Positions 30,298 to 37,844 of a stretch of 64,000 bases of DNA are shown in pieces. Each line of letters opens with the position of its first letter. The first letter of the stretch is position 1. The translations under genes and the position numbers were made by a program. This DNA is from Gammaproteobacteria bacterium. GTDB taxonomy: Bacteria; Pseudomonadota; Gammaproteobacteria; Chromatiales; Chromatiaceae. Location of the stretch: positions 1 through 64,000 of the forward strand of contig RZZN01000004.1 of the NCBI GenBank assembly GCA_009929855.1, written 5' to 3'. The notes beneath the pieces are model-generated. The model searched no databases, was not told where the DNA came from, and saw nothing but the letters and a program-made list of their open reading frames with translations.

Positions 30298-31290
30298 TCA
30301 AGTCGGCGAGTGGCCGCTCTTCTGCAGTGCGTGAGCCTGCCGATCGGCATGATAGGACGAGCGCACCAGGGGAGCACTGGCCACGCTGGCAAATCCCATG
30401 GACTCGGCCAGGTGGCGCAGTGCATCGAACTCATCCGGCGTCCAGTAGCGTTGAACCGGGTAATGCTCGCGGCTCGGCTGGAGATACTGGCCCAACGTCA
30501 ACATGTCGCACGCATGATCACGCAGGTCGCTGAGTGTTTCCTCGACTTCCTGGATGGTCTCGCCAAGACCGAGCATGAGTCCCGACTTGGTCGGGACGCT
30601 CGGATGTGCCGCCTTGAACGCGCTCAAGAGATTCAGTGAGCCGGCATAATCGGCACCTGGTCGCGCCCGTGGATAGAGTCGCGGAACGGTCTCGAGGTTA
30701 TGGTTGAAGACATCCGGCTTGGCCATGTCGATGAATTGCTCGATGGCGAGCGCCGCGCGACCGCGAAAATCAGGCACCAGCACCTCGATCCTGATACGCG
30801 GCGAGCGGGCTCGAATCGCGCGCAAGCAGGCGGCAAAATGACCCGCCCCACCATCGCGCAGATCATCCCGGTCGACCGAGGTCACCACCACGTAACTCAG
30901 ATCCATGGCCGCGATCGACTCGGCGAGACGCCGCGGCTCGTCAGGATCGGGCGGCAGTGGTCGACCGTGCGCGACATCGCAGAACGGACAGCGCCGAGTG
31001 CAGATGTCGCCTAGGATCATTAAGGTCGCCGTGCCGTGACTGAAGCACTCCCCAAGATTTGGGCACATGGCCTCCTCACAGACGGTCACTAGACCACGTT
31101 CGCGCAGCAAGCGTTTGATGCGGGTCACGCCTTCGCCGACCGGGGCACGAGCACGGATCCAGTCGGGCTTACGCTGGATGGCCGGCGCCGGTTCGATCTT
31201 GATCGGAATGCGCGAGACCTTGTCTGATCCGCGTTGGTGGGTCTCGGGCGTCGCGCGTGACGGCGCGGTGAGACGATCCTCAGAGGTCAT
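30298..31290 (-). CDS. lipA: Lipoyl synthase
   Basis: Radical-SAM enzyme that inserts two sulfurs into octanoyl groups on lipoyl domains. Both cluster motifs are visible: the auxiliary [12 protein letters not shown] and the radical-SAM CTRRCPFC. 330 residues from the ATG at 31290 (MTSEDRLT), normal for LipA. No lipB is adjacent, so the gene is separated from its frequent partner. It follows idi on the minus strand and may be reached by readthrough from the photosynthesis cluster. Confidence 0.96.
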
Positions 31291-31359: not shown

Positions 31360-31956
31360 TCAGTCGACCGGCGCTGGATGAGCCACGTCCGAGAAGAGTC
31401 GTTCCATCAAGAGGCGAAACCATGGCGTGAACCATGCGGGGCGCCGGGCAATCGCCTCCCGAACATGTGGAATCGACATCCAGCGCCATGCGCCGATCTC
31501 GGCGGGATCAGGTCGCGGATCACCGGTATGGAAGCCGAAGAAGATGTGCAGATATTCATGCTCGATCAGGCCGGAGGTCTGATCCTCGGCGCGATAGACG
31601 AGTTGAGTCCGCTCACCGAGGGGAACTCGGATGCCAAATTCCTCTTTCAGGCGACGACCAGCCGCTCCGTCGGTCGACTCACCAGGACGCGGATGCCCAC
31701 AGCAAGTGTTTGACCAGCGCGTCGCAAAGTGATACTTACAGTCAGCACGACGCTGCAACAGCAGGCGGTCACGTGTATCGAACACCAAGACGGAGAAGGC
31801 ACGATGGAGTTGACCGTCATGATGGACGGCAAGTTTCGCGGCCGAGCCAAGCTCGCGATCCTGCTCATCGACGAGGATGACCTCTTCACGGGCCTCGCGT
31901 TGCGCATGTCGCTCCAGAGCATCGGGAGCCAAGGGTAGGACGATTCTGGCGCTCAA
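31360..31956 (-). CDS. idi: Isopentenyl-diphosphate delta-isomerase, type I
   Basis: Nudix-fold enzyme interconverting IPP and DMAPP, feeding GGPP synthesis for carotenoids and the bacteriochlorophyll tail. Motifs: FSVLVFDTRDRLLLQRRADCKYHF, TNTCCGHP-type active-site Cys (here SNTCCGHPRPGE), and EHEYLHIFFG. It starts at a TTG preceded by GGAGG at ideal spacing; 198 residues. An idi gene inside a photosynthesis cluster also occurs in Rhodobacter. It lies 59 bases behind the RuBisCO-like gene. Confidence 0.94.
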   Translation of the reverse strand: MSARIVLPLAPDALERHAQREAREEVILVDEQDRELGSAAKLAVHHDGQLHRAFSVLVFDTRDRLLLQRRADCKYHFATRWSNTCCGHPRPGESTDGAAGRRLKEEFGIRVPLGERTQLVYRAEDQTSGLIEHEYLHIFFGFHTGDPRPDPAEIGAWRWMSIPHVREAIARRPAWFTPWFRLLMERLFSDVAHPAPVD

Positions 31957-32014
31957 TCACGACCTCCAACCACACGGGCCAAACCTGACGATTTGGGGAC
32001 ACTTCCAACCGAAC

Positions 32015-33307
32015 TCAACCAAATGTCGCGAGCGCCGCCGCCAGCTCAGGATGATCACGTGCATGCTCCTCGATCGCCACGCCAGCAGCGATGGCTGACC
32101 ATGCTTGCCGGATACTGGCCGCGCCACCCCGCGGACCCTGTGGATGCCCGAAGACCCCACGACCCGGGACGAAACCAAAATCACGGGTTCCAACCTTCTC
32201 GTGGAGATTTTTCAAGGTGCCCGCCCAATCGCTTCCACCTGGAACGGGTAGACTTGGGGCAAGTCCTCCCAGCGGCTCGAGACAGGCGTGTACATTGCCG
32301 CACACCTCGTCATCCGTCATCATCATGCGCTGACCGAAACCGGGCATGATGATGACATCGAATCCGGCCAGACGCTGCAGCTTCGTCATCACCCGTGTGC
32401 TGACACCGAATCCATCGAGACGACTCATGGCCGCGATCATCGGAAAATGCGCAACGAGCGGCACTCGACTCTTAGCGGACAACATCCGAGCGGCGCTCAG
32501 CCCGACCGGCAATGCGTTCAGCATCACCGCATTCGCGCCATTGGCAACCGCCAGGTCATGCAGCTCGACCAAACGCTCCACCTCATCGGTGATATTGGCC
32601 AGGTAGAGCTTGGGAACCCCGGTCTGCGCCTCGGCGCGACGGCGCGCCTCACCCAGGGCCCGCGTGCGGTCGGCCAAGCTGCACCAGGGTGTATCGCAGA
32701 GCATCTCGTCATCCTTGGCAACATCGAGTCCGCCCAGCCAACCCGCGAGTGCCAATTCGGCCATGGACTGAGGATCGAGTCCGATGTTTGGTTTGATGAC
32801 TCCAAAAAAGATCGGCCGATCGTCGACCTGGAGCAGATCACGCAATCCGGCGACACCAAACCGTGGCCCGCGAAAGGAGGCAAGATAGCTTTCCGGGAAG
32901 TCGATGTCCAGGAGCTTGACAGCCGGGATACCAGGCGTGAAGAAGGTTCCCTCGCCGCAGACGGCACTGAGCAGATTCGGGATCCGGGCGCCGAAATTTC
33001 GGTGCGGATGGGCGATGCGCACGCGACAGACCTGGACTGGTCCAGACCCTGGCAAACTCAAGCCGAGACTGAATTCGGCGCGCGTCCCGAGCACATCGAG
33101 TGCGACAGCCTTGGCACCATGACGCGCACGCAGATCCTCGGTCGAGCCGACACGCCTCCACTGGGCCGTCGATTGCTCGGAACAAAAATGAGCAACCGCC
33201 ACCTGGGGGTCGCCACGACATTCAAGTTCATAATCGAGCCAGAGATAGTCCTCCTGATCCAGCGCCGCGGGATCCGCAAAAAAACCATCGATGTCGGCGG
33301 CCTGCAT
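32015..33307 (-). CDS. RuBisCO-like protein (form IV)
   Basis: 430-residue RuBisCO large-subunit homologue that is not a carboxylase. [10 protein letters not shown] retains the carbamylated-Lys/Asp/Glu metal site and GVIKPNIG keeps the first active-site Lys. The second Lys of I-K-P-K is Asn, the H-R of the substrate site is missing ([12 protein letters not shown]), and loop 6 reads [10 protein letters not shown] without the catalytic Lys. The ending [15 protein letters not shown] suggests the IV-Photo group found in phototrophs, linked to sulfur metabolism by mutant work in Chlorobaculum. It starts 3 bases after the YjbQ-family gene. Confidence 0.9.
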
Positions 33308-33310
33308 GCA

Positions 33311-33739
33311 CTAACCCTCACCCATCATCTGGAGCTGAACCTTGCGTTGCGGCCTTGGACCATCGAGCTCCACAAAAAAGATCGATTGCCACTCGCCAAG
33401 ACAGAGCGCGCGTTCAGCGACCGGAATGGTCTCGGAGGCATTCATGAACAGCCCGATGAGGTGAGCATGTGCGTTCACCCGTCCATCCACGGGGGCCTGG
33501 TCATGTCGATAGCCGATCGCGGGCGGGGCGATTCCTCCCAGGAAATCCAGCATGTCCTGCTGCAACATGGTCTCTTTCTCGTTGAGACACACGAAGGCGG
33601 TCGTGTGCGCCGAAAAGAGCGTCAACAGACCTTGAGACAAACCGCTGCGCGCCAGACTCGCACGGACTTGCGCGGTGATCTCGATGATCTCGATAGGCGC
33701 GTGCGTGCGCAGAATGATGGTGTCACGGAACTGGAGCAT
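33311..33739 (-). CDS. YjbQ/UPF0047 family protein
   Basis: 142-residue protein with the family signature: SAHTTAFVCLNEKE near residue 44 and HAHLIGLFMNASETIPV near residue 90, ending with GEWQSIFFVELDGPRPQRKV. Some family members have weak thiamine-phosphate synthase activity; the cellular role is unsettled. The chosen ATG begins MLQFRDTIILRT. It lies between the puf operon end and the RuBisCO-like gene with only 3 bases to the latter, so the two are translated from one message. Confidence 0.9.
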   Translation of the reverse strand: MLQFRDTIILRTHAPIEIIEITAQVRASLARSGLSQGLLTLFSAHTTAFVCLNEKETMLQQDMLDFLGGIAPPAIGYRHDQAPVDGRVNAHAHLIGLFMNASETIPVAERALCLGEWQSIFFVELDGPRPQRKVQLQMMGEG

Positions 33740-33761: not shown

Positions 33762-33788
33762 GGGCGGCGCTCGGAGCGAGCGCCGCCC
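33762..33788 (-). terminator. 12-bp perfect hairpin after the last pufA
   Basis: GGGCGGCGCTCG pairs with CGAGCGCCGCCC around a GAG loop, 24 bases after the last pufA stop. It is one of the strongest hairpins in the window but has no U-run. It likely protects the 3' end of puf mRNA and may reduce readthrough into the YjbQ/RuBisCO-like pair. Confidence 0.65.
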
Positions 33789-33811: not shown

Positions 33812-34015
33812 TTATCGGACCGGGAGAGGCGACATCTGCGCGGCTGGCGTCACGGCCGCAGCCTGACCCATCGCGGCATCACCTGCCAACCAATTGAAGC
33901 TGGCCGAGCTGAGCAGGATGAAATGAATCAGGAGGGCAAGGACGAGCAGGAAGCCGAACAAGGCGACCAGCGTTCTGCGCGGATCAAAGATCTGCCAGAT
34001 TTTATGCATGGGCAT
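33812..34015 (-). CDS. pufA3: LH1 alpha polypeptide, third copy
   Basis: 67-residue single-span antenna protein. [32 protein letters not shown] contains the alpha N-terminal DPRR motif and the membrane His that ligates bacteriochlorophyll. AGGAG lies 7 bases before the first ATG (MPMHK). It matches pufA2 almost residue for residue through the membrane span but carries a 23-residue C-terminal extension rich in Ala, Met and Pro. The two genes differ at many synonymous sites, so the duplication is not recent. Confidence 0.93.
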
Positions 34016-34103: not shown

Positions 34104-34247
34104 CTACAGCCACGGCCTCCACAGCCAGGCCAGGATATGAGCAATGATGACGACTCCGAAGAACCCGGTCATGCTCTGGACGAAGATTCCGTGGAATTCC
34201 TTCGCTTCTTCTTCGGTCAGTCCGGTCATGCTTTTCTCTTCAGCCAT
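34104..34247 (-). CDS. pufB3: LH1 beta polypeptide, third copy (absent from ORF track)
   Basis: A 47-residue frame starting [20 protein letters not shown] and ending [11 protein letters not shown]. Both conserved histidines of LH1 beta are present: the upstream one in EFHGIF and the bacteriochlorophyll ligand in [13 protein letters not shown] precedes the ATG. It pairs with pufA3 89 bases downstream. It is very similar to pufB1, unlike the divergent pufB2. Confidence 0.93.
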
Positions 34248-34389
34248 GGAATTACCCTCACGTTTCATCGATTGGCCAGTTGGCCGTTACCGCGTTCTTC
34301 CCCGCGGCGAGGACCACATTGGGGAGCCGAGTTTCCGTATCGTGTCACGGTCGGCATCCCCGGACTTACGCTGAGCCACGCGGCCTGAA

Positions 34390-34527
34390 TCAAGCGCCGG
34401 AAAGCCAATTGAAGGCTGGGCTGCTGAGCAGGATGAAGTGGATCAACAGCGCCAAGACGAACAGAAAACCGAACAAAGCCACCAGGGTCCTACGTGGATC
34501 GAAGATCTGCCAGATTTTGTGCATCAT
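34390..34527 (-). CDS. pufA2: LH1 alpha polypeptide, second copy
   Basis: 45-residue alpha antenna chain, [20 protein letters not shown]..., ending FNWLSGA. The bacteriochlorophyll-ligating His is in [10 protein letters not shown]. Two adjacent ATGs follow a GGAG; I give the first. The ORF track extends it 15 codons upstream without support. It is shorter at the C-terminus than pufA1 and pufA3. It pairs with the divergent pufB2 upstream. Confidence 0.92.
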
Positions 34528-34611: not shown

Positions 34612-34758
34612 CTAGAGCCAGGGGCGCCACAACCAGACCAGGATGTGCGCGACGACCACGAGCGACGAGAAGGCGACGAGGCTCGACACAACGATATCAG
34701 GAAAATCTTTCACCTCGGCCCGCATCGGACCACTGGTCATCTCGCTGCGAACGGTCAT
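34612..34758 (-). CDS. pufB2: Divergent LH1 beta polypeptide, second copy
   Basis: 48-residue beta-type chain starting MTVRSEMTSGPMRAEVKDFP and ending VVVAHILVWLWRPWL, with GAGGAGG well placed upstream. The bacteriochlorophyll-ligating His (VAHIL) and the WLWRPWL end are kept. The N-terminal half diverges: the E-F-H-G-I-F of other beta chains reads D-F-P-D-I-V, so the conserved upstream His is lost. It lies first after pufC. It may be a specialised, weakly used or decaying subunit. Confidence 0.88.
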   Translation of the reverse strand: MTVRSEMTSGPMRAEVKDFPDIVVSSLVAFSSLVVVAHILVWLWRPWL

Positions 34759-34953: not shown

Positions 34954-36036
34954 CTAGAGGGCCGTCGCTGGCGCAGCGTCCTCTGAGGCTTCCGCGGCAG
35001 GCTCGACCGGGGCCGCCTCAGGCGCAGCCGCCTGGGCCGGACCGGCAAGTGCCGGGTAGTCCTTGAGCATCTGCGCACCATAGAGCGGCTTATAGGCACC
35101 CTGATGGCAGGTGAAGCAGGCGATCCGGTAGGGGTCGCCCAACGGGCCTTTACGGCTCTCCGGCAGCACATCGTTCAATGGCCAGATGTAATCCTGGTTC
35201 ATCTCGCGGACATGCCGGATCGCGTACCATGCCGTGGTCCGCTGCGGGGTGCTTTGATCCCAGGCAAAGAACGAGCGGCTGTTGTGGCAGTAGGTGCAGT
35301 TGACTCCGAGCGCGTCGGACAGATGCATCATCAAGCCATAGGTCCATTCCGCCTGCTTCGTCGAAGCCAGATTGCCGCTCGGTAGAGCGGAATCCCCGAT
35401 CACACGAATCTCATTGGCTTGATCCAGGAACGGGGTGAAGGGATCGAACGGCAACGAGGAATAGGCCACCGAGGACGCTGCGATATTTTGCCCGGTCGGG
35501 GCCACCGCGGACGGCAACTTCGGACCTGGATCGGTCACCCAGACATACTCGGGAACCGGATTGCCACGATGGCAGGTGTAACAGGTCACACCCGTATCGG
35601 CGACATGGTCCTTCCATCCCGCATTGGTGTCGCGAGTCATCTGGAACATCCGTCGCGAGACGACCTTCGTGTAGATGTCGTCTGAGGCGAAGTCACCCGG
35701 GACATGGCAATAATTGCAGCCTTCTTCCGGCGAGACCCACAAGGTCACGGCAACCATCAGTCGGGTGAAGTCGGCCATGGTCAGATCATTCAGAACCTGA
35801 ACGTTCTGATAGACGTCGGTCACCATGGGACCACCTGGGGCCGCCGCTGGGATGGCCTCGGGTGGCTGATTGGCCGCATAGCTGCGAGCAAGATCACGTG
35901 GATTCTGGACGTGCTCCATGGCCAAGCCACGATAGCCCAACTGGACGGTCTCGGGTGGCGGACGCTCGCAACCGATCAGTACGACGGAGGCCACGGCGAC
36001 CGCGACTGGAACCGAGGTCAGCTTCAGGATACTCAT
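34954..36036 (-). CDS. pufC: Photosynthetic reaction centre cytochrome c subunit (tetraheme)
   Basis: 360-residue periplasmic lipoprotein that reduces the photo-oxidised special pair. The signal ends in lipobox VLIGC (Cys near 23). Four heme motifs are visible: CNYCH, CYTCH, CTYCH and CFTCH, with Met ligands in the helices before them. The ATG overlaps the pufM stop (ATGA), so the ORF-track start 71 codons upstream is rejected. The C-terminal 30 residues are an Ala/Pro/Glu-rich tail. Confidence 0.97.
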
Positions 36037-37007
36037 TGCGCCACCCCCTGCATCAGCGTGGGATCGATCGCTGGGGTCTCGAACGGATAGCTCGGGGCGA
36101 CACCATGCTTCACTGCCCACAGATACCAGTTGTCGACGACGGTTCCGGTCAAGAGGATTCCGATACCTGCGGTCACGACCGTCAGCACCGCAAACCACCA
36201 GGCCCAACGATGGATGGATTCCATCGTCGCGTTGAAGCCCATCGTCCAACGCCAGAAGAGGGCGGCTCGCTCGGCCGCCGTGCCACGATGAGTCACCTGA
36301 TCGATCTCACGATCGCCACCGAAGCGGCTGACCGACAGGATCGTCGCCCCATGCATGGCGAACAGTAGTGCCGACCCGTAGAGGAAGGCGATCGAGAGCA
36401 TGTGGAATGGGTTGTAATAGAGATTGCCGTAGCGAATCGAGAAGGCTGCCGTCCAGTCGAGGTGCGGGAAGATTCCGAAAGGCACGGCTTCAGCCCAACT
36501 TCCCATCATGATCGGGCGAATGAAGCCCAGGCTCAGATAGAAGAAGATCGCCGCGGCAAAGGCCCAGGACAGCCATTGACCCATCCCCAGATCGGCGGCT
36601 CGCTTCCAAGTCCGGATCCACCAGAGGATGATGGAGACCGTCAGGAAGAACCCAGCCATCAACCACCAGCCACCATCGGACAAGGGCGGAATGCTCAAAC
36701 CGTATGACGGTGGCGGCGGCTCCAGCGCCAGCCAGAAGAAGTTCTTGATGAACTCGATCGGATTCCAGTTGACGGACGCGAGCATGTTGAATCCGATGAT
36801 CTCGATGGCGATGAAGCCGAAGATCAAGGATAGCGTGCCCGTGAAGCCGAGATAGATCGGACCGATCTGAGCATCACCGATCTTTCCTGCCCAGTAAGAA
36901 AAGAAGGGTTTGCCGATTCGTGGCAAGTTGCCTTTCGGCATCGGCACACCCGGATAAGCCGGGGAGCGCACCTGCACGGCCGTAAAAATGTTCTGATATT
37001 CAGCCAT
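36033..37007 (-). CDS. pufM: Photosynthetic reaction centre M subunit
   Basis: 324-residue five-helix subunit that with PufL binds the special pair, bacteriopheophytins, quinones and the non-heme iron. The start reads [45 protein letters not shown] holds the special-pair and iron-site histidines, and [20 protein letters not shown] carries the quinone/iron-site region. It overlaps pufC by ATGA and follows pufL by 15 bases. Confidence 0.97.
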
Positions 37008-37022
37008 CGTTATCTCCTGGGC

Positions 37023-37844
37023 CTACCAGAGTGGAAGCTCGAGCCACCAGTTCCACCATTCCGGCCATCCGCGGGTCCAGAACGGTCCACTGATCACGAT
37101 GCACACGGCACTCCAGAAGACCGCGGCCAGCGCCAGGAACAGGCCGAGGCGATGAATGCCCAGCGCGCCGATCGAGTAGCCAACCAGATCCCGGAAGAAG
37201 GTGTTCTCATGCTCGCCGGTCCCAACGGGCTCGCCCTTGGCGGGATTGGTGACCGAGAGAATGAGCGATCCATGCATCGCGAGCGCCAAGCAGGTGGTGA
37301 AAAAGAAGGTGATCGCGATCATGTGGGCCGGGTTGTAGTGGAAATGCAGGTGTTGATACCCGACATTCGAGACCCAGTCCAGGTGGCTCAGGATTCCGTA
37401 CGGAAAACCATGACCCCAAGCGCCCATCAGGAACGGCCGAATCACGACGAGCGTGATATAGGCGCCGATGGCGAACGCGAAGGCGAAGGGAACGTGGAAG
37501 CCGATCCCGAGCTTGCGACAGATCTCCACTTCACGCAGCGCCCAAGAGACGAAGGCACCGATCGCGCAGAAGGTGATGATCTGCCAGAGCCCACCTTCGG
37601 TGAGCGGCGCCATCCCTAGGCCGTAGCTGAGATCGGGCGGCGCGATGTTGATCTGCCAGATATTGAAGGTCGGACCGAGGGCGGCGCCCCAAACGATCAG
37701 GAGCGTCCCCAACAATGCGAAGAAGAACGCCGACACTCCGAAGAAGCCGACATAGAACGGCCCCACCCAGAAGTCGAATAGATCTCCCCCGATCAGCGTC
37801 CCGCCACGGACGCGGTATTTTTTCTCAAAACTGAGCATGGCCAT
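37023..37844 (-). CDS. pufL: Photosynthetic reaction centre L subunit
   Basis: 273-residue membrane subunit, [36 protein letters not shown] at the start. [32 protein letters not shown] includes the special-pair ligand and iron-ligating histidines. Five transmembrane helices fit the known fold. The start could be the second ATG (MLSFEKKY). Hairpins in the gap after pufA1 separate it from the antenna genes and probably set the antenna-to-reaction-centre ratio. Confidence 0.97.

Follow-up and report, generated by a model that had tools for sequence, protein, structure and literature searches.

A Conserved Pair of yjbQ and a Form IV "Photo"-Clade RuBisCO-Like Protein behind the puf Operon and at Other Loci

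Gene Organization at the puf-yjbQ-RLP Locus

The window, which is the whole stretch of 64,000 nucleotides analysed here, contains on its minus strand a row of genes in the order pufL-pufM-pufC-pufB-pufA-pufB-pufA-yjbQ-RLP-idi-lipA, in which RLP codes for a RuBisCO-like protein. The products of pufL (37023-37844) and pufM (36033-37007) were both identified by PF00124, and pufC (34954-36042), encoding the reaction-centre cytochrome, was assigned by the homologue present at the same place in relatives. Profile matches to LH1 alpha were obtained for pufA (34390-34527) and for the last copy of pufA (33812-34015), and to LH1 beta for the pufB gene located between them (34104-34268). The pufB copy closest to pufC (34612-34758) is divergent, with 49 bits against the NCBIfam LH1-beta cut-off of 61, and lies over the Pfam LHC cut-off.

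Downstream of the last pufA, at a distance of 72 nt, the yjbQ gene (33311-33739) codes for a protein of 142 amino acids of the UPF0047/TIGR00149 family. Its stop codon is separated by 3 nt (33308-33310) from the start codon of the RLP gene (32015-33307; 430 amino acids), reading TAG tgc ATG, and the purine-rich GGTGAGGGT at the 3' end of yjbQ may serve as the ribosome-binding site for the RLP. The idi gene (31360-31956, with a TTG start as listed) codes for a type 1 isopentenyl-diphosphate isomerase, as shown by 131.7 bits for TIGR02150 against a cut-off of 105.8. It is followed by lipA (30298-31287), identified by a profile match as coding for the radical SAM enzyme lipoyl synthase, and lipA is the next gene after idi in most puf-linked loci. 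A preceding sequence-only reading had placed yjbQ and RLP 3 bases apart, 72 bases behind the last pufA and with idi next, and all of these coordinates were confirmed on the minus strand. The closest relative loci are those of Thiocapsa, with which the host genome, that of a purple sulfur bacterium, is also grouped; this genome contains two form I RuBisCO large subunits in addition to the RLP.

Most of the gap between pufA and yjbQ is occupied by a strong hairpin (33796-33754, minus strand), identified by folding with -41.8 kcal/mol and a z score of -6.5. Its inner stem is formed by 33789-33777 with 33773-33761 and its outer stem by 33796-33791 with 33759-33754; the hairpin previously proposed at 33762-33788 is real, but larger than had been described. 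A comparable G+C-rich hairpin of varying sequence was found at the same place in 16 of the 18 loci inspected. Because a U run is absent after the stem in the window, the structure looks more like a message-end stabiliser or a processing site than an intrinsic terminator. In most puf-linked Chromatiaceae the hairpin occupies this place behind the final pufA, and it may be a 3'-end element of the puf message. A promoter-like site was not found in the gap by a pattern scan, which is a weak guide in such genomes (one match in 8.3 kb against 2.5 expected).

The Photo-Clade RLP and Its Active Site

The RLP matched PF00016 with an E value of 5e-49, and its closest solved structures are those of R. 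palustris RLP2 (RPA0262; 2qyg, E 3e-189) and of the C. tepidum RLP (1tel/1ykw, E 1e-180). In the tree, both references fall inside the same clade as the window RLP, which identified it as a member of the form IV "Photo" group; they align with it ungapped over about 425 residues and share its active-site replacements. The RLPs of Armatimonadota, Chlorobi and Proteobacteria, among them every yjbQ-linked RLP, are placed apart from those of Spirochaetota and Chloroflexota (91/95). A Chlorobium knock-out of a Photo-clade RLP was reportedly described in 2001, and the reaction is said not to have been assigned since.

For the comparison of active sites, 71 proteobacterial and seven other Photo-type RLPs were aligned with the form I RuBisCO of the host genome. 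The carbamylation lysine, the Mg ligands, the catalytic base and the phosphate sites were assigned from established knowledge of the RuBisCO structure. K175, K201, D203, E204 and H294 are kept in all of these proteins, and E60 and W66 wherever the alignment covers them. The replacements identified in Photo-type RLPs are T65Q (L in Armatimonadota), N123E, K177N, R295F, H327I/V, K334R, S379G or A, G381S and G403R. Among these, R295F, H327I and S379G/A concern the ligands of the second phosphate, while K334R and G403R are located at the first-phosphate site. The window RLP likewise has the RuBisCO catalytic residues replaced and the Mg and base residues kept. This suggests a working Mg/carbamate site and base in the Photo RLP, with a second-phosphate site that is gone and a first-phosphate site that has been rebuilt. 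Since the second-phosphate ligands are lost while the Mg and base residues are kept, the active site is most naturally read as one for an enolisable substrate with a single phosphate, and the protein is predicted to catalyse the Mg-dependent enolisation of such a substrate. Carboxylation of RuBP would be absent, judging from K177N, R295F, H327I and K334R.

Several characterized RLPs were considered as possible identities. The window RLP is not MtnW, the IV-YkrW enolase (144.6 bits against the TIGR03332 cut-off of 513.6), with which it would have in common the chemistry of a Mg-dependent enolising RLP. Identity with the 3-oxo-isoapionate-4-phosphate decarboxylase OiaX was also rejected, with 230.8 bits against the NF042437 cut-off of 700; the OiaX/OiaT RLPs known from D-apiose catabolism use a substrate with a single phosphate, and apiose genes are not near the window RLP. 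DeepYkr, the 5-methylthioribulose-1-phosphate (MTRu-1P) 1,3-isomerase represented by R. rubrum Rru_A1998 and R. palustris RLP1, has the RuBisCO fold, the loss of the R295/H327 ligands and K334R in common with the Photo RLP, and its tie to isoprenoid synthesis through the MTA-isoprenoid shunt resembles the context of the pair. However, DeepYkr proteins carry E204H at the metal site and G404D, keep N123, and have a cupin as partner instead of yjbQ, whereas the Photo RLP of the window has N123E, G381S and G403R of its own. In both its residue pattern and its clade, the window RLP is separated from DeepYkr.

It could still be proposed that the RLP is the MTRu-1P 1,3-isomerase of the MTA-isoprenoid shunt, forming a DXP precursor next to idi, and the adjacent idi gene, the presence of dxs near the pair in three of four alphaproteobacterial genomes and the presence of mtnA in 41 of 41 genomes tested would agree with this role. 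However, mtnA was also found in RLP-less relatives included as controls and therefore does not discriminate ribulose-1-phosphate substrates, and the residues differ as described above. In addition, activity on MTRu-1P could not be detected for R. palustris RLP2, a member of the same clade, and MTA and sulfur metabolism were unaffected by its deletion, unlike that of RLP1, the DeepYkr protein which performs the reaction (PMC5893883). The RLP2 deletion was also without the pleiotropic effects known from C. tepidum, and the authors leave the function of RLP2 open (PMC5893883). Therefore, the shunt, which is largely refuted for the Photo RLP and hardly credible, should not be taken for granted, and the same applies to a general sulfur role. 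The link to sulfur metabolism and stress contained in the sequence-only reading rests on C. tepidum and is not reflected in the R. palustris deletion.

A second RLP-like match (33-38%) was observed beside the Photo RLP in about 40 Chromatiaceae genomes. Both second RLPs that were inspected (L135 and L136) contain the motif IKDDHG, which corresponds to E204H, and look DeepYkr-like; for L135, the best PDB match is 3qfw. In 2018, R. palustris was called the sole organism reported to contain two RLP subclasses (PMC5893883).

The YjbQ Protein

YjbQ belongs to a widespread family for which, to our knowledge, no physiological role has been settled. The window protein scored 98.7 bits for TIGR00149 (cut-off 67.75) and 115.6 bits for PF01894 (cut-off 27; E 1.8e-33). 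Its predicted model (pLDDT 93.8) has the YjbQ fold, with a TM-score of 0.92 to the YjbQ structure 1vph, and a fold search with this model for functional analogues retrieved YjbQ structures only. All putative active-site residues, H45, E54, E56, D62, H79, N89, H91, H93, W117 and D126, are kept. A secondary thiamin-phosphate synthase activity is given for the family in the profile annotation.

Family and fold are common to the window YjbQ, E. coli YjbQ and SSO2532. However, in comparison to YjbQ/UPF0047 at large, the RLP-linked members are separate: in the tree, a single clade (99/98) unites the 40 RLP-linked proteobacterial YjbQs and excludes all 37 unlinked YjbQs sampled, paralogues from the same genomes included. 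In the linked YjbQs of all phyla, H45, E54, E56, D62, H79, N89, H91 and H93 are invariant, and of the residues invariant in linked members, H45, N53 and H91 are absent in most Chromatiaceae paralogues. One origin for the linked YjbQs of Proteobacteria and Armatimonadota was neither shown nor rejected (AU p 0.275). The host genome contains a second yjbQ (G000 contig C274:25990-26367), which is 39% identical, falls into the unlinked clade and crosses an in-frame TAG; it may be a pseudogene or an assembly error.

Conservation of the yjbQ-RLP Pair

In a survey of 210 Chromatiales genomes, in which Photo RLPs were called at 1e-100 or better, the RLP was identified in 76. One of these (G056), in which the contig begins at the RLP gene, was excluded from the adjacency count. 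In 71 of the 75 evaluable genomes, yjbQ is located upstream of RLP on the same strand and within 100 nt. Three genomes (L040, L043 and L098) have yjbQ farther upstream, at 287, 434 and 1268 nt, and in G184 (L015) it was not found in the 3.2 kb upstream of RLP, the only strong yjbQ match lying at the edge of another contig. All five alphaproteobacteria with a Photo RLP contain the pair, with 17-35 nt between the genes, and in the three Armatimonadota (3/3) the order is reversed, with yjbQ 126-175 nt behind RLP as measured by alignment ends. For the Spirochaetota and one Chloroflexota genome, where the RLP is 52-58% identical, yjbQ was not found beside the RLP in the DNA examined; YjbQ is therefore not required for every Photo-like RLP. 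A Photo RLP was not found in 353 other Pseudomonadota genomes that were evenly drawn, and the gene is therefore rare outside the lineages studied.

Over the Chromatiales, alphaproteobacteria and Armatimonadota surveyed, with most genomes coming from one family, the adjacency of yjbQ and RLP is far beyond chance. The coupling of the two genes that had been read from the window is conserved in phototroph genomes and is widespread rather than unique to this genome. A neutral gene order, inherited with the photosynthesis cluster and without functional meaning, could be argued for on the ground that a single family supplies most of the genomes. This is very improbable, however, as the pair is kept at different loci, occurs in alphaproteobacteria as well and is also present, with its gene order reversed, in Armatimonadota. 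Because it persists across relocations, order reversal and two phyla, a shared role of YjbQ and RLP, as had been suggested from the window, is supported. The distances of YjbQ and RLP agree (r 0.75; 0 of 2000 permutations), which is consistent with such a role, and common descent could equally give this agreement. No paper linking YjbQ to an RLP was found in a literature search; relative to the known Form IV-Photo RLPs, the stable pairing with yjbQ and the presence in Armatimonadota lacking a reaction centre are new in the literature searched.

In Spirochaetota, Photo-like RLPs are located in sugar-catabolic operons (L019:4194-16422 and L020:3596-11735). These relatives raise the possibility of a role in the catabolism of a sugar or sugar acid, the enzyme having been adapted by the phototrophs: both operons hold a class II aldolase, a UPF0261 protein, a SorC-type regulator and an FGGY kinase or an RpiB-type isomerase, and the substrate of RLPs from D-apiose pathways is a beta-keto acid with a single phosphate (PMC6302742, citing Carter et al. 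2018). Such a role is unlikely for the pair, however, since sugar genes are absent beside it in phototrophs, the OiaX score remains below the cut-off, and the S379 and G404 positions are Ala in Spirochaetota and Chloroflexota against Gly in the yjbQ-linked RLPs. The spirochaete genomes also contain a second MtnA-like gene with a low score, in a stretch without overlap to the RLP locus L020.

Relation of the Pair to puf and Light

Like the RLP, pufM was identified in 76 of the 210 Chromatiales genomes. Both genes were present in 73 genomes, RLP only in three, puf only in three and neither in 131 (Fisher p 1e-48, a value overstated by the relatedness of the genomes). The assemblies of the three RLP-only genomes are incomplete, and reaction-centre fragments were detected in two of them. 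Of the puf-only genomes, G189 and G192 are near-complete (95-98%) and contain puf followed by idi without an RLP (L138 and L139), so that the association of idi with puf does not depend on the pair. Each of the five alphaproteobacteria that have the pair contains pufLM (PF00124). PF00124, indicative of a type II reaction centre, was not found in the three Armatimonadota with the pair, nor in the spirochaete and Chloroflexota genomes. The module is therefore characteristic of phototrophs without being bound to a type II photosystem.

Among the 76 genomes, 48 have the pair behind puf, seven of them, from genus g48, with the order puf-idi-yjbQ-RLP, and at least 24 have it away from puf. Genomes that contain both puf and the pair do not always keep them side by side, and the position close to puf seems to be derived.

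From the window, a tight coupling to puf and a light-linked role had been proposed, according to which the pair would be part of the puf transcription unit. The position directly after puf in 48 of the 76 genomes, the co-occurrence with pufM and the presence of pufLM in every alphaproteobacterium with the pair point in this direction. However, the light-linked role is only partly supported because of the pairs off puf, the near-complete puf genomes without RLP and the Armatimonadota without PF00124. The adjacency to puf holds for the 48 genomes, but a coupling of transcription is doubtful in view of the conserved place of the hairpin between pufA and yjbQ and of the unequal transcripts in A. 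vinosum. In this organism, Alvin_2545 is the RLP gene and Alvin_2547-2555 are the puf genes (PMC3368242). On pyrite, puf was down up to 10-fold, while Alvin_2545 "decreased just slightly" (PMC11267869), and tight co-regulation is therefore doubtful. A light-linked function within the puf transcription unit is thus considered rather unlikely.

Neighbours of the Pair and a Possible Precursor Pathway

The survey of neighbouring genes, which used their presence and proximity only, identified the contexts puf-[pair]-idi-lipA, puf-idi-[pair], ubiUV-mnmL-[pair], dxs-SOUL-[pair] and mqnD-[pair]. Beside the pair, nine genomes of genus g50 carry ubiU, ubiV and mnmL, a radical SAM gene; in some of these genomes ubiT and a second idi lie at a greater distance. 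A divergent idi was identified beside the pair in two genomes of g45 and g49. Among four alphaproteobacterial genomes, a SOUL protein is encoded near the pair in all four and dxs in three, and in two of the three Armatimonadota mqnD-type menaquinone genes (PF02621) lie beside the pair. Isoprenoid or quinone neighbours are absent at the pair in R. palustris and in genera g31 and g53. At three loci (L113, L120 and L123), the pair is divergent beside phosphoribulokinase (NF011997) and is followed by riboflavin genes (ribBA, lumazine-binding).

Because idi, ubiTUV, dxs and mqnD recur beside the pair, an isoprenoid/quinone theme was noticed, post hoc and from about five contexts. A function in the supply or recycling of an isoprenoid/quinone precursor is a tentative guess, with the balance against it.

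One specific version of this theme would be the recycling of 5'-deoxyadenosine from radical SAM enzymes, in which the RLP turns 5-deoxyribulose-1-phosphate directly into 1-deoxyxylulose-5-phosphate, from which isoprenoids, quinones and thiamin would be supplied, while YjbQ would act on the thiamin side or on an intermediate. The loss of the second-phosphate site suits a 5-deoxy sugar 1-phosphate, and RLP2 slowly converted a small part of MTRu-1P in earlier in vitro experiments cited in PMC5893883. The neighbours idi, dxs, ubiTUV and mqnD together with the radical SAM genes lipA and mnmL, the presence of mtnA and the annotated thiamin-phosphate synthase activity of YjbQ would also agree with it. 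However, mtnA has no discriminating value, the proximity of lipA and mnmL may be due to chance and the thiamin link of YjbQ is weak, which leaves this version distinctly unlikely.

A Probable Two-Enzyme Module of yjbQ and RLP

The explanation favoured here, which we regard as probable though by no means certain, is that yjbQ and the Photo RLP form a conserved two-enzyme module acting on the same metabolite or in consecutive steps, with an RLP that enolises a mono-phosphate. Most likely, the RLP enolises, and so isomerises, a compound with a single phosphate, the far end of which is non-phosphorylated. YjbQ, with its full set of invariant His, Glu and Asp residues, probably makes or consumes this compound. 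The module would have been retained mainly by anoxygenic phototrophs, and its place behind puf would be a later, lineage-specific insertion between puf and idi. The expression of the pair may partly follow the photosystem, while the function itself would not be a light reaction.

Going further, the Photo RLP and YjbQ might constitute an unrecognised anaerobic route by which a precursor of isoprenoids and quinones, and perhaps of thiamin, is formed or recycled, for instance by converting radical-SAM-derived 5-deoxyribose into 1-deoxyxylulose-5-phosphate, a proposal that is quite unlikely on the present evidence. If it were true, phototrophs would have adopted the module because the synthesis of pigments and quinones needs the precursor. 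The near-obligate partnership joins two orphans, the Photo RLP and YjbQ, into one testable pathway, and R. palustris, in which clean deletions can be made routinely, is among the organisms containing the pair.
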